Shown here: piece after piece, positions 44,401 through 52,259 of the stretch
Position numbering within the stretch: position 1 is the stretch's first letter
Layout of the letters: every line of letters starts with the position of its first letter
Origin: Spirochaetota bacterium
GTDB taxonomy: Bacteria > Spirochaetota > UBA4802 > UBA5368
DNA: 62,136 bases
Reading direction: 5' to 3'
Assembly (NCBI GenBank): GCA_035477215.1
Contig: DATIKU010000003.1
Location: forward strand, 1 to 62,136
Translations under genes and position numbers: made by a program
Notes under the pieces: generated by a model
What the model was told of the DNA's origin: nothing
The model's database searches: none
What the model saw: the letters and a program-made list of their open reading frames with translations, nothing else

Positions 44401-44669
44401 CACTCCTCCCTGCAGCCTGCCCATTGTTCAATCCACTTTTTCGCTTACCGCGCGGTCATTAACAAGCACTTTTTCAGCGGAAGAGCCGCCTTCCTTTTCC
44501 GTTTTCATGTTCCACCCTGATACGCCTGCGTCATACTGCACCCGGACATCCCATGAAGCGAACGGTCAACGTCCAAGGCCCGGACGTAAGAACGGGCGAC
44601 GATCATGATCATCGCCCGTTCCCGGGAATCGCCGCCTGTCATTATCCTCTCCGACTCATTGACATTTTC
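44401..44669. other. Intergenic stretch with palindrome, no gene recognised
   Basis: A 270-base stretch upstream of the alpha/beta hydrolase, without a gene I can defend. A short plus-strand frame from 44553 has no recognisable N-terminal part. It does run into the PEBP remnant downstream and may include its degraded 5' end. Confidence 0.4.
44591..44620. repeat. 30-bp imperfect palindrome
   Basis: AACGGGCGACGATCA followed by TGATCATCGCCCGTT: 15-base arms without a loop and with a single mismatched pair. No T-run follows. It lies between the hydrolase and the PEBP remnant and could be a protein-binding dyad, a cruciform, or a relic of the palindromic elements seen at 47717-52022, although its sequence differs from theirs. 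Confidence 0.6.
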
Positions 44670-47155: not shown

Positions 47156-47683
47156 TCAATCCCCCTCAAACTCACAGAGGGCGAACATCCTGTGGCCCGC
47201 CTCTTTTATCTTAGCGCGCCCGCCCACGTCGGGAAGGTCGACGATGAACGCCATTTCGACCACGGCGCCGCCCAGCTTCTCGATGAGCTTCGTCGCGGCC
47301 ATGGCCGTGCCGCCGGTGGCGAGCAGGTCGTCGACGATCAGCACGCGGTCTCCGGGTTTGATCGCATCGACGTGCATCTCGATGATGTCGGTGCCGTACT
47401 CGAGTTCGTACTCGTGGCGCTCGGTCTTATATGGAAGCTTTCCTTTTTTCCGCACGGGGACGAAGCCTTTCCCCAGCCTGTACGCAACCGCTCCGCCCAG
47501 GATGAACCCGCGCGCCTCGAGCCCTACCACGACATCGATGGGCATTTCCCGGTATCGCTCGACGAAAGAGTCGATCACCTCGCGCAGGCCCTCGGCATCT
47601 TTAAGGAGCGTGGTGATGTCGCGGAACATGATCCCCTTTTTCGGAAAATCGGGGATGGTGCGGATTTTCGATTTGATGGACAT
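47156..47683 (-). CDS. apt: Adenine phosphoribosyltransferase
   Basis: A 175-aa enzyme converting adenine and PRPP to AMP. Family motifs are IPDFPKKGIMFRDITTLL at the start, GLEARGFILG and the PRPP loop VLIVDDLLATGGTA. ATG 47683 is chosen: the protein then opens MSIKSKIRTIPDFPK and GGAGG lies about 9 bases upstream. The longer frame adds an unrelated 14 residues reaching toward the palindromic element. It is convergent with the purine permease gene. Confidence 0.95.
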   Translation of the reverse strand: MSIKSKIRTIPDFPKKGIMFRDITTLLKDAEGLREVIDSFVERYREMPIDVVVGLEARGFILGGAVAYRLGKGFVPVRKKGKLPYKTERHEYELEYGTDIIEMHVDAIKPGDRVLIVDDLLATGGTAMAATKLIEKLGGAVVEMAFIVDLPDVGGRAKIKEAGHRMFALCEFEGD

Positions 47684-47716
47684 GGGCGCATGCCCTCCAT
47701 TTATAATGATTGCGGG

Positions 47717-47764
47717 CGCGCACATTGAAGACGCGGATCCGGATCCGCGTCTTCAATGTGCGCG
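47717..47764. repeat. 48-bp perfect palindrome (element copy 1)
   Basis: A perfect dyad of 24-base arms without a loop, centred between 47740 and 47741; the core reads GACGCGGATCCGGATCCGCG. It lies just after the stop codon of the activase gene and before the apt start region. The shared TTGAAGxCGCGGATyCGrATCCGC core links it to the copy at 51983. No T-run follows, so it is not a normal terminator. Confidence 0.9.
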
Positions 47765-47771
47765 TCTTCCA

Positions 47772-50700
47772 TTACGCCATGCTCTCCCCGGATACGTCAA
47801 TTCTCTTTCGACCGAATTCGTCCATATTAACCGGTTCCGGTTCGCGCTTTGCGTAATCATCATCCTTCGCCGCTATATTTTGCAGGTACACCCCCACCAT
47901 GCGGTTGACGTCACTCTCGCCGTCATAAAAGAGGGTGAGGAGGCGGGGAAACGTTTCCGCGCGTTCATGCAGGCGCGGATATGCATCCGTACCATGGTGT
48001 TCCGCGACCCGGCCAACCCGCGCGGCATCGCCCTGAAACAGCGCGTTCGTGATGTTCCCCGGCATGCAGCCGAACGGCGCGCAGTTCACCACCAGCGCCG
48101 CACCGTCGTCCGCAAATGCCGCGGCGCGACCCAGCGTGAGGATGGCCTCGCCCTCGAATTCGACCGGTAGGAAGCGTTTCCCGTAATCAATCATCGCCTC
48201 GATGGTTGGTTCGCGCCTATGGGAGAGATGCGCGTCCATGGCGCGCTCGAATTTATGATAACGGTGAAAGAGATAGGCGGTCTTGAGCCCCACCACGGTC
48301 CGATTCCAGAAACCGGTCCGGTTTCGCCTGGCGGAATGACGCTCCATCCACGCTGTGTAGAGTATCCACTCGGAGATCGGCGTAAGCCAGGCCTCGCCGC
48401 CGAAGCTCTCGATGGCGCGTACAAGGTCGTTGTTGCAATAGGGATTGCAGCGTACGTAGATCTCGCCGACGACGCCAACCAGCGGTTTTTCAACGAGCGA
48501 AACGGGCACGCGTGAGATCGAGTCGAGCGCCGCGAGGGTTGCCGCAATGAGGTCGCTTTTCGAGCCGGCGGCCTCCTCCACTCGCCGGAGGGCCTCTTCG
48601 GCCGCGCGATCGACCGAGCCCGGTTCCCGCTCATACGGCCTTCTCGCGCAGATCTGCTTGAAGAGCATGTCGCCCGAGATGATGATGTTCCACAGGTACA
48701 TGCGCAGGCCCTCGGGCATCCCCATGTACGAATTGACCGATGACGGTGAAAAGATCTCCGCCTGGCCGAAACCGTTCTCGGCCAGGATCCTGCGGTGGAG
48801 CAGCGTATACTGGCCGAAACGGCACGGCCCTTCCGCCGTCGGCATAAAGAGCGCATGTCTTCGCGGGTCGGCGCCGATCTCCCGCATTTTTCGTAAAAAC
48901 ACGCCGATGGTGGTGCTCGCCGGCAGACACTCGCTCCCGCGCACGCCGCGCCGCCCCACCTCGTGCGCCGCGCCGTCCTCCACCGGCAGCGCCTCGGCGT
49001 CAAAGCCCCAGGCGCGGAAACCCGCCGCCGAGATGCGCGCGGATATCTCGTGCATGGGCGGGATCCAGAGCTTGCGGTCGCTCTGTTTCCATGTCGGAAG
49101 GAACGCCCCGGCCTTCGGCTTCGACGCTTCCGCTCCGGTTCCGTGCGTGCGGACTACGTCCATGAAGGCCTCGATGCGCGTGAGGTATCCGGTGTCCGAC
49201 CCGTGCTCGTCGAGCTCGACGATGAGGTACGGCTTTCCTTTCATGATCTCCTCGAAGCGGGTGAGCACGAATGAATCCGGACCGCAGCCGAAGTTGGTGA
49301 GGTAGACGGGATACAGGCCGTCCATATCGCGGATCTTTTGGGAGAAGGCGAGGATACGCTCGCCGTAGTGCCAGTACATATAGTGCACGTTCGAGCTCCA
49401 GTCGGAGGGATCCATCAGGCACTCGTAGGGCAGGATTTCGACGTCGCTCCCCGCGAAGCGCTCCGGCAGTCCCATGTTGATGACCGGATCATACAGGTTA
49501 TAGGGCCTGCCGATGAAGACGATCCCCTTTTTCCCGTCCTCCCTCATCTTTGCGAGGAGCTTCAGTCCGTATTCATAACGTCGCAAAAGATGGGCGTGAT
49601 GGGCCTCAAGCCCCGCACGGTACGCCTGGCGGACATCTTCCTCCCCGAACTCGAATCCGACGAGGGCCTGTTTGAGCGATTCGACGATGAGCCGCTCGTC
49701 GAGACGGAAATCGACCACGGGCGCGATGACCGGCACCGGAAGGCCGAGCGTACCGGCGGCAAGCGACGGGATGGAGATCTCGTAGGGACACGAGATGCGC
49801 GGAAGGCCGCTCTCCTGCCTGCGCTCGCTGATCACCGTCGGGAAGAACAGGGCGTCGACGCCGTCCCCGGCGGCGAGTTCACGCGCGTGCGCGAGCGCCA
49901 TCTTGACGGGAAAGCAGAAGTCCGATTTGGCGATGCGGATGCCGGCCTCCTTATGGAGCGGCGTTGAGGCGCCGGAGAGCGCGACATCGAAGCCGAGGCG
50001 CCCGAGAAAGGTCCGCCACAGCGGCAGGTAACCGTGCATGGAGAGCGCCTGCGTTATGCCGATGCGCCTCCCATGGATGCGCCGATTCGAATCGGCGCAT
50101 CCATGGGAGGCTTTCCGCGGGCGCGAATATGCATTCGCGCTTTCAGCCATAGACCGCACGCGGGAAAGGTGATTGACGGGCCGCGTGTTTTTCCGGTGGC
50201 GCACATCTTCATGCGGGCTCGAATTCCCGCGGGGGTGTGAATAGTAATCCGCGCATTCCCCCTCGTCCCGCCCGCACAGATATCCCCACGACTCCTCGAC
50301 GCCGCCTTCCAGGCGCGCCACGGTGATGGTGCAGCGATTGGCGCAGTCGGTGCAGGCGCGGTACCCGATGTCGATCTGCCGCTCGAAGACGGAAAGCCCC
50401 CGGAAAGCACCCGCGCAAGCGTCGCTGTGCTCGAGCGAAATAATCGCGGCACCGAGCGCGCCCATAACATGGCAGTGCGGCGAAACCACGATCTCCTTGC
50501 CCGTAATGAGCTCGAAGGCCGCGACAAGGCCGTTATTCCGCGCCGTGGCCCCCTGGAAAAAGACGCGCTCACCGGTGACCGGGCGCGTGCCCACCACCCG
50601 GTACAGGTAGTTTTTCGCGATGGAATGGAGCACCCCGGCCAGGGTTTCCTCGTGCGAACGCCCCTCGCGGAGCAGGCGCTGGATATCCTGCTCCATGAAA

Positions 50701-52259
50701 ACGGTGCAGCGGTCGGAGGTATGCGGTATGCGGCGGCCGAGCGTAAGCGCGCCGATATCGCGCACGTCGTAGCCGAGGCGCACGGCCTGCTCCTCGATGA
50801 ATGATCCGGTTCCGGCGGCGCAGACGAAATTCATGTTGCAGTCGATCACGGCGCCGCCGGAACCGCGAATGTACTTGGCGTCCTGCCCGCCGATCTCGAA
50901 TACCGTTTCTATGGAAGGATCGTGATGTGTCGCGCCGCGATAATGCGCGGTGATCTCGTTCACGATGGCCGAGGCGCCCATAACGCGGCCCACCAGCCGG
51001 CGTCCCGAACCGGTGGTTGCCACGCGTTCGATCCGGGCGCCATCCTCCAGCACGCCGACAAGCGCGCTGAAGAGCGCGCCCGACGCGCCGAGGGGATCGC
51101 CCCCGGTCTTCCGGTATATGTCGCAGACCACCTCGCGGCTCTCAGCGTCGATCACAACGCACTTGGTGGAGGTGGAGCCTATGTCCACGCCGAGCGCCAG
51201 GGGCTTCCCGGCCGGCGCCTTTCGGTGTACGCGCACCTCGTTTCCCTCCGCCTGGTATTCTTCTATCGGATTGATTGTGCTCCGCTTCGAGCGGCAAAGG
51301 GCAAGCACACGCGAATCGGCGTCGTTGAACAGGCCCTGGCCCTCGCGAGGTGAGCATCCGACGAAGCATCCGGAGGGCCCCCCCCCTTCCGAAACCGGTA
51401 ATCCGCCGCGGGCACTCCACTCGCGGGCGGTCTCCCTCGCGGCCTCCCGCTCGCCTGCAAGCGCGGCCCCGATGGCGGCGAGAAAATGCCCGCGATCGTG
51501 AAACACGGGCCGGCCCACCTCGCACCGCACCCATTCGCGCGCCTGGGGATTGAGGAAGAGTCCGCCGCAGAAGAGCACGGGGCAGGCCGGAACATCCCCC
51601 CGAAAAGCCGTGGCCAGCATGGTGGTCACCACGCCCCGGCACAATCCAGACCACAGCTCATCGCGCGTGTGGCCCTCCTGCTGGCGATGGATGATGTCGG
51701 ACTTGGCGAAAACGGCGCAGCGCGTGGCGATCGAGGGCGGCTCCGCATGGGAGGGCAGGGCCGCGACATCCTCGTAGCCAAAGCCCATTCGGCGCATCTG
51801 TTCGTCGAGGAAGGAACCGGTGCCCGCCGCACAGAGGCTGTTCTCGCGGTAGGCGCGGAAGCTCATGGCGTCATCGAGCTCGATACAGCGAATGGAGCCG
51901 GCGCCCACGATCACGATTTGCCGGCATTCTATACCGAGGTAGCGCACGGCCTCGATGGCCGCGGCAATCTCATCAATGATCTGCGTTTGAATGTGCGGAT
52001 TCGAATCCGCGCCTTCAAACGCGCCCCTGTCGCAAATCTGCCCGGCGAAGGGACCGGTGGCGACGATACGCAGACCCGGCGCGCCGGAACCGGCCGCTTC
52101 CATCATACCCGCTATCATCGAATTGAGCGCTAAACGCGGATTGCCGTGATGTTCACCGTAGAGCATGCACTCAGCGGTTCCTGAAACGTTTCGGTCGGAG
52201 AAAGCCCCTGCCGGTACTATCTTTAAAAATTTGCTCCCCGCGTCGACGCCGATGACCAT
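47772..52259 (-). CDS. Giant 2-hydroxyacyl-CoA dehydratase activase-like protein (two ASKHA modules + DUF2229)
   Basis: A 1495-aa protein. Two ASKHA ATPase modules of the BadF/BadG/HgdC type occupy about residues 1-275 and 355-620. Each has GxDxGS-type phosphate loops (VIGVDAGSKF; GVDIGSTSTK) and the [4Fe-4S] cluster Cys pairs (CAAGTGSF with TRCAVF or DRCTVF). A Cys cluster CTDCANRC follows near residue 640, then a DUF2229-type domain from about 732 (IGITQALSMHGYLPLWRTF) and a dehydratase-subunit-like C-terminal part (GRPYNLYDPVINMGLP). Classical activators energise radical dehydratases by ATP-driven electron transfer, and stand-alone fusions like this are widespread but of unknown substrate. 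Several long palindromes are inside the coding frame (see repeats). GAGG precedes ATG 52259. Confidence 0.88.
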   Translation of the reverse strand: MVIGVDAGSKFLKIVPAGAFSDRNVSGTAECMLYGEHHGNPRLALNSMIAGMMEAAGSGAPGLRIVATGPFAGQICDRGAFEGADSNPHIQTQIIDEIAAAIEAVRYLGIECRQIVIVGAGSIRCIELDDAMSFRAYRENSLCAAGTGSFLDEQMRRMGFGYEDVAALPSHAEPPSIATRCAVFAKSDIIHRQQEGHTRDELWSGLCRGVVTTMLATAFRGDVPACPVLFCGGLFLNPQAREWVRCEVGRPVFHDRGHFLAAIGAALAGEREAARETAREWSARGGLPVSEGGGPSGCFVGCSPREGQGLFNDADSRVLALCRSKRSTINPIEEYQAEGNEVRVHRKAPAGKPLALGVDIGSTSTKCVVIDAESREVVCDIYRKTGGDPLGASGALFSALVGVLEDGARIERVATTGSGRRLVGRVMGASAIVNEITAHYRGATHHDPSIETVFEIGGQDAKYIRGSGGAVIDCNMNFVCAAGTGSFIEEQAVRLGYDVRDIGALTLGRRIPHTSDRCTVFMEQDIQRLLREGRSHEETLAGVLHSIAKNYLYRVVGTRPVTGERVFFQGATARNNGLVAAFELITGKEIVVSPHCHVMGALGAAIISLEHSDACAGAFRGLSVFERQIDIGYRACTDCANRCTITVARLEGGVEESWGYLCGRDEGECADYYSHPRGNSSPHEDVRHRKNTRPVNHLSRVRSMAESANAYSRPRKASHGCADSNRRIHGRRIGITQALSMHGYLPLWRTFLGRLGFDVALSGASTPLHKEAGIRIAKSDFCFPVKMALAHARELAAGDGVDALFFPTVISERRQESGLPRISCPYEISIPSLAAGTLGLPVPVIAPVVDFRLDERLIVESLKQALVGFEFGEEDVRQAYRAGLEAHHAHLLRRYEYGLKLLAKMREDGKKGIVFIGRPYNLYDPVINMGLPERFAGSDVEILPYECLMDPSDWSSNVHYMYWHYGERILAFSQKIRDMDGLYPVYLTNFGCGPDSFVLTRFEEIMKGKPYLIVELDEHGSDTGYLTRIEAFMDVVRTHGTGAEASKPKAGAFLPTWKQSDRKLWIPPMHEISARISAAGFRAWGFDAEALPVEDGAAHEVGRRGVRGSECLPASTTIGVFLRKMREIGADPRRHALFMPTAEGPCRFGQYTLLHRRILAENGFGQAEIFSPSSVNSYMGMPEGLRMYLWNIIISGDMLFKQICARRPYEREPGSVDRAAEEALRRVEEAAGSKSDLIAATLAALDSISRVPVSLVEKPLVGVVGEIYVRCNPYCNNDLVRAIESFGGEAWLTPISEWILYTAWMERHSARRNRTGFWNRTVVGLKTAYLFHRYHKFERAMDAHLSHRREPTIEAMIDYGKRFLPVEFEGEAILTLGRAAAFADDGAALVVNCAPFGCMPGNITNALFQGDAARVGRVAEHHGTDAYPRLHERAETFPRLLTLFYDGESDVNRMVGVYLQNIAAKDDDYAKREPEPVNMDEFGRKRIDVSGESMA
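50066..50111. repeat. 46-bp perfect palindrome inside the activase gene (element copy 3)
   Basis: A perfect dyad centred at 50088/50089 with 23-base arms; the core is GCCGATTCGAATCGGC. It is translated in frame as about 15 residues including CADSNRRIH, in a linker just before the DUF2229 domain. Compare GADSNPHIQ encoded by the copy at 51983. The arms outside the core differ from those of copies 1 and 2. Confidence 0.9.
50121..50140. repeat. 20-bp inverted repeat next to element copy 3
   Basis: GCGCGAAT, 4-base loop, ATTCGCGC. It is translated in frame within ESANAYSR. It lies only 9 bases from the perfect 46-bp palindrome, and a weaker dyad (GCGGG..CCCGC at 50213-50230) lies a further 70 bases away. 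This suggests an accretion of small palindromes in one linker. Confidence 0.6.
51983..52022. repeat. 40-bp near-perfect palindrome inside the activase gene (element copy 2)
   Basis: Arms of 20 bases centred at 52002/52003 with two mismatched pairs; the core is GCGGATTCGAATCCGC. It is translated in frame as AFEGADSNPHIQT (about residues 79-92 of the activase-like protein). The part TTGAAGGCGCGGATTCGAAT aligns with TTGAAGACGCGGATCCGGAT of copy 1. Confidence 0.85.

Follow-up and report, generated by a model that had tools for sequence, protein, structure and literature searches.

The window, a whole stretch of 62,136 nucleotides from a Spirochaetota bacterium (assembly GCA_035477215.1, contig DATIKU010000003.1), carries a gene for an acyl-CoA dehydratase activase/DUF2229 fusion, the apt gene next to it and three long palindromes. 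A first-pass annotation had recorded all three palindromes, two of them in frame inside one giant gene and one just after it. We found the same positions, the same symmetry and the same reading frame, as listed below.

47156..47686, minus strand: apt (adenine phosphoribosyltransferase), downstream of copy 1
47717..47764, no strand: copy 1 (first palindrome), 48 bp, perfect, 24+24 arms
47772..52259, minus strand: host gene, acyl-CoA dehydratase activase/DUF2229 fusion, 1495 aa
47972..47993, no strand: short relative, GGCGCGGAT-ATGC-ATCCGTACC, in frame (GTDAYPRL)
50066..50111, no strand: copy 2 (second palindrome), 46 bp, perfect, 23+23 arms, in frame inside the activase
50120..50141, no strand: short relative, GGCGCGAAT-ATGC-ATTCGCGCT, 8-bp stem, in frame (SANAYSRP)
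51983..52022, no strand: copy 3 (third palindrome), 40 bp, 20+20 arms, two mismatched pairs, in frame inside the activase

Copy 1 consists of the core GAAGACGCGGAT-CCGG-ATCCGCGTCTTC and the 10-bp outer arms CGCGCACATT/AATGTGCGCG. It has the activase stop codon on one side and apt on the other, and its RNA fold is -41.7 kcal/mol. Copy 2 consists of GGATGCGCCGAT-TCGA-ATCGGCGCATCC with 9-bp outer arms and is translated as ASHGCADSNRRIHGRR; the translation of copy 3 is AFEGADSNPHIQTQ. The palindrome scores of copies 1, 2 and 3 are 24, 23 and 14, compared with at most 13 in simulated windows (order-1, composition matched to the window). K-mer enrichment within the window alone gave nothing. Together with the two short relatives, one lying 8 bp past copy 2 and the other close to the activase C-terminus, the gene holds four in-frame members of the hairpin family. 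The in-frame copies are located in linkers, and the activase gene seems to be a collector of hairpin inserts.

In the activase orthologs of two related genomes (locus L069 in genome G004 and L070 in G001), the same linkers contain tandem diverged units (GADVFPRQHEGAESLSRLSRRADTRPR; GADLDPRFLRGAGANSHPRFLGRADLDPHFLG). Frequently, another half-core, CGCGCCTTC or GAAGGCG, comes after the outer arm or overlaps it (L002, L004, L007, L035, L188 and window 47717-47775), a pattern that rearrangement of nested or tandem copies might leave. Tandem GGGCGCGGATACGCATCC units stand beside the core copy at L006 in G000, and related diverged repeats occur at L050 in G004. Elsewhere in the window, ORFs resembling an alpha/beta-hydrolase and a TetR regulator flank a near-perfect 32-bp palindrome, GAACGGGCGACGATCATGATCATCGCCCGTTC (44590-44621), which by sequence does not belong to the hairpin family and may be an operator.

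Core and outer stem of the hairpin

The anatomy was derived from 65 copies of two genomes (G005 and G007), which we aligned on their centres. The conserved core is a 12-bp stem, GAAGGCGCGGAT/ATCCGCGCCTTC, plus a tetraloop, 28 bp in total. The loop is TCGA in 24 copies, ACGT in 8 and ATAT in 7, and mostly NCGN in the remainder. The first-pass annotation was right that the palindromes share a motif, the real form of which is GAAGGCGCGGAT-tetraloop-ATCCGCGCCTTC, but it joined copies 1 and 2 by a longer shared string, and copy 1 is nearer to copy 3 than to copy 2. Changes within the core are paired: with core pairs 1-3 left free by the search pattern, all 25 changes at inner pair 3 are symmetric, as are 11 at pair 5, which also has 1 unpaired. 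In a blind test on a genome of another family (G023), all three outer free pairs were complementary in 30 of 34 matches to AAGGCGCG-N10-CGCGCCTT, for which the chance level is 1 in 64.

Beyond the core, the arms are locus-specific and have no consensus except weak AT adjoining the core, yet they are still complementary. They are typically 6-11 bp long, up to ~13 bp, and whole palindromes measure ~26-62 bp. The outer complementary run has a mean of 5.8 bp and reaches at least 6 bp in 37 of the 65 copies. When left flanks were paired with right flanks of other copies, the mean run was 0.52, only 0.16 cases of at least 6 bp were expected, and the maximum in 2000 shuffles was 3. Complementarity is at background by ~24 nt from the centre. 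The 43 long-armed copies contain 312 outer-stem pairs, of which 310 are Watson-Crick, none G.T or A.C and 2 other, counts that are somewhat biased toward Watson-Crick because the arm extents were set by pairing. REP stems are reported to contain GT pairs frequently (PMC3733652), so the lack of G.T in the outer stems points to DNA-level templating.

An origin from a tRNA T arm, with GGATTCGAATCC resembling the T-loop TTCGAAT, was rejected by argument: A-C would stand in place of the invariant pair G53-C61, and ATAT and ACGC occur as loops too.

Copies, carriers and unoccupied sites

With the core GCGGATTCGAATCCGC and at most 2 mismatches, we found 16 places in the 3.57-Mb genome of the window and 0 for the reversed pattern. 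The relaxed pattern AAGGCGCGGA-N6-TCCGCGCCTT (six free central bases, at most 2 mismatches) gave 140 copies over all 8 genomes of the family-level group (G000 16, G001 2, G002 6, G003 9, G004 13, G005 66, G006 8 and G007 20) and 1 for the reversed-pattern control. The first-pass annotation had proposed a palindromic family that spreads in the genome and is tolerated in coding DNA, and had named a lack of further copies as evidence against it; the 16 copies in the genome itself and the 140 in the family support the proposal. An assembly artefact or chance palindromes have a negligible probability: all carriers are metagenome assemblies, but independent assemblies, with flanks that have diverged, carry copies at the same sites, and the reversed-pattern control gave at most 1 match. 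One region (L002/L067) is ~99% identical between G000 and G004, whereas the other compared flanks are ~77-93% identical; it may be a recent transfer or a binning mix-up. A telomere or replication junction is ruled out by the many dispersed copies.

The hairpin is also common in genus g6, in a second family of the order (34 copies in G023, 10 in G010), and none of the 132 genomes of the phylum that were sampled beyond the order has it. In a third family (f7), genus g12 has weaker matches, 13 of 22 fully paired and some with G.T, which may be ordinary terminators. Among 84,980 species genomes searched, the 20-bp core was found in 25 stretches, mostly Spirochaetota MAGs. The named carriers are mostly uncultured Spirochaetota MAGs, e.g., ADurb.BinA120, UBA5368 and Prado230, plus some Neomarinimicrobiota. 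In the latter (L044, L052, L055 and L060), palindromes with the same 20-bp core have AAAG or CCAG outer arms, and the core there may reflect a shared family, transfer or coincidence. Two viral contigs match the relaxed pattern; one (L243) resembles an ordinary terminator and the other (L242) is poorly paired. Rfam models matched no family at 12 loci, the sole match being a neighbouring 6S RNA, and a literature search covering few subscription papers found no described family matching the hairpin.

Three unrelated sites in G005 have the asymmetry GGCACGG/CCGCGCC in common, as descent of one copy from another would predict. Intergenic regions of genus g2 (L084, L089, L106, L109 and L114 in G005/G007) carry a second repeat family, roughly AAGGGAGATGRGGAGATAACGG ... 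CCGTTGCCGTAATCTCCTCATCTCCATTGAAAGGCGCC, which looks like a longer inverted repeat of the MITE type.

In Neisseria, paired DNA uptake sequences act as terminators, and inverted pairs of their conserved stem word recur at the 3' ends of genes. The hairpin resembles them in its conserved short word, found in inverted pairs at 3' gene ends, and differs in that single half-sites are not enriched in hairpin-carrying genomes: half-sites are nearly always paired, and unpaired GAAGGCGCGGA is at about the control level. In an uptake system, unpaired copies would far outnumber inverted pairs, and each genome has hundreds to thousands of uptake sequences (PMC2346458). Hence, a DNA uptake sequence is an extremely improbable identity for the hairpin.

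Comparison of orthologous sites, as the first-pass annotation had suggested, revealed both occupied and unoccupied states. At L003, a copy is present in G000, G002 and G004; G001 and G003 have none there, and 3-7 nt separate their flanking genes. The outer arms of the three occupied alleles differ from each other yet are symmetric. Further unoccupied sites are that of copy 1 in G004, L005 in G003 and L181 in G007. Copies 2 and 3 sit in the activases of g1 genomes, and the linkers of G005-G007 are without GADSNPR-type peptides. The residues of the inserts are absent from activases outside the genus; their presence in distant activases as ancestral sequence, which the first-pass annotation had named as evidence against its proposal, is thus not what was found.

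The 28-bp core might instead transpose into the loops of pre-existing hairpins, e.g., native terminators, so that the outer arms would be native stems. The arms do look like terminator stems in being locus-specific, 6-11 bp long and near stop codons, and some mobile repeats (YPAL) target dyad symmetry (PMC2229807). However, the unoccupied alleles at L003, L005, L181 and copy 1 have no such hairpin, and at L098 the native stem of the sister genome is replaced and does not flank the core. We regard this origin as quite improbable. None of the unoccupied sites examined was similar enough to tell which outer arm is native.

The target-site patterns proposed for inspection did not appear as direct duplications: none longer than 4 nt abuts the palindromes, and 60 of 65 copies have none at all, so the direct target-site duplication of MITEs is missing. 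A simple inverted target duplication was considered and is not proven, since at L181 the outermost 4 nt (CCGG) alone match the unoccupied allele.

Concerted change of the arms and position at gene ends

The two arms change together between orthologous copies. In copy 2, 9 of 23 pairs differ between G000 and G004, 9 symmetrically and 0 asymmetrically. The copy 2 orthologs in G004 and G001 likewise differ by symmetric changes only, and the G001 site is a 62-bp perfect palindrome that is translated throughout. The copy 3 ortholog in G004 is 46 bp long and has 3 extra nt per arm (CCG/CGG), both of which are missing in G000. Independent mutations would hardly yield matching indels in the two arms, whereas arm-to-arm copying yields them simply. 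Thus, the joint change of both halves suggests that the cell may copy one half from the other. L083 and its G007 ortholog differ by 5 symmetric changes and 1 asymmetric. At L014, L002 and L082, one-sided changes persist unrepaired between orthologous copies, so any correction is slow and homogenisation is not immediate.

Most copies are extragenic. Usually within ~40 nt past a stop codon, the hairpin is at times read in frame as part of a protein linker; in-frame insertion, which the first-pass annotation had described, does occur but is exceptional. In G005 and G007, 20 of the 65 copies are flanked by convergent genes and 6 by divergent ones; co-directional copies are mostly 5-35 nt after the upstream stop codon, with single assignments approximate because the gene calls used a simple codon model. 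Since most copies are just after stop codons, a terminator or 3'-end role is likely for many of them, judged from position and sequence, and it cannot explain the translated copies.

Such a role is compatible with the explanation that we favour below and is a rival only as the sole cause of symmetry. In that form, selection on RNA hairpins (terminators or 3'-end stabilisers of mRNA) would produce the symmetry, and the paired changes would be ordinary compensatory mutations. The convergent placement and the proximity to stop codons agree with this, as do the very stable RNA folds. Moreover, at two G005 sites (L098/L113 and L087/L109) the sister genome has a terminator-like hairpin at the equivalent place, and a similar one was seen by eye at L168/L222, where L168 faces 6S RNA. 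On the other side, the 312 outer-stem pairs contain no G.U, though REP stems often show GT (PMC3733652), and the symmetry also holds in the copies translated inside the activase. A GC-rich stem is present, but a T-run of at least 4 within 30 nt follows only 11 of 43 oriented copies, and no terminator-like site was called at copy 1. RNA selection as the only cause is therefore rather unlikely.

Relation to known systems and a possible mechanism

Rickettsia palindromic elements (RPEs) had been named in the first-pass annotation as the closest parallel. Like the hairpin family, they are dispersed palindromic repeats that are found outside genes and in frame and are tolerated by the host protein (PMC2229807), and copies 2 and 3 in the activases of g1 genomes are in-frame insertions of this kind. 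RPEs measure 105-146 bp with 12-bp terminal inverted repeats, and those of R. conorii end in CGTC (PMC3733652). The hairpin family has a 28-bp core, a perfect stem and locus-specific outer arms. RPE is a parallel in function only, and size and tag do not match: CGTC is to the right of 6 and to the left of 0 among 65 arms, GTAG is beside 0 of 65 on either side, and CTAC beside 1 of 65. A 28-bp core with a locus-specific symmetric outer stem is not how RPEs are described.

REP/BIME elements, tagged with GTAG or CGTC, are extragenic palindromes of 20-40 bp, with subfamilies that show complementary stem changes; functions in termination and in stabilising mRNA have been proposed for them (PMC3733652). 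The hairpin family is also extragenic, short and of high copy number (up to 66 per genome, mostly intergenic). It differs in its stems of 13-31 bp (mostly 6-9 bp in REP), in being free of tags and in its outer stem without G.T. The 13 Y1_Tnp loci in four genomes are without the core hairpin, so a RAYT/Y1 transposase partner flanked by the repeat is not supported. It is very unlikely that the palindromes are RPEs or REP/RAYT elements in the strict sense: they share the palindromic, dispersed, mostly extragenic and sometimes in-frame character, against which stand the short core, the tag counts and the Y1 transposase loci without copies. The hairpin family works like REP and RPE but fails the tested defining features of both, and we file it as a short interspersed palindrome that is a member of neither.

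Two further systems resemble it in single respects. In Nematomorpha mitochondria, perfect inverted repeats are kept inside translated genes (PMC6649704); these are up to 284 bp long and both arms encode conserved protein, whereas the hairpins are found in linkers and have a dispersed core in common. In template-switch (quasipalindrome) mutation, one arm is copied from the other, which creates or repairs perfect stems (PMC8794818); it is known as single mutations or in RNA-gene evolution and has not been linked to a dispersed repeat family.

Our best explanation, which we consider somewhat more probable than not, is that all three palindromes represent a single hairpin, dispersed and non-coding, of which the core is mobile and the arms are copied by template switching. 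The comparisons show the family, its symmetry, the concerted change and the presence or absence of copies; we infer the copying process, its direction, the mobility enzyme and the role. The core would spread as a short mobile unit by means of a putative enzyme. At each site, the hairpin would then make the replication fork switch templates, and the polymerase would copy one arm from the other. Such arm copying would lengthen the stem, repair mismatches and pass changes between the arms. Copies would be retained chiefly at the 3' ends of genes, where they may be harmless or serve as terminators or 3'-end hairpins of mRNA. Template switching creates and maintains hairpins in other settings (PMC8794818), and template-switch mutation at quasipalindromes is documented in E. 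coli (PMC7202029). Several results count against the explanation: the unoccupied sites are too dissimilar to tell the native arm, one-sided changes persist in some orthologous copies, the Y1 transposase loci of four genomes yielded no mobility enzyme with a copy beside it, and direct target duplications are missing. Tentatively, the family may represent a minimal mobile element with a 28-bp core and no target duplication, for which a custom perfect outer stem is grown at each site by fold-back copying and the arms are kept in concert in the same way, including in translated DNA.

The family bears on two open questions, namely by what route short palindromes spread in bacteria and what keeps long stems perfect. 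One genome family provides tens of copies with a shared core, private stems and orthologs of varying divergence, which is material for a direct test of arm-to-arm copying against RNA selection. The activase offers a natural case of hairpins that are tolerated and evolve in concert within a translated gene.
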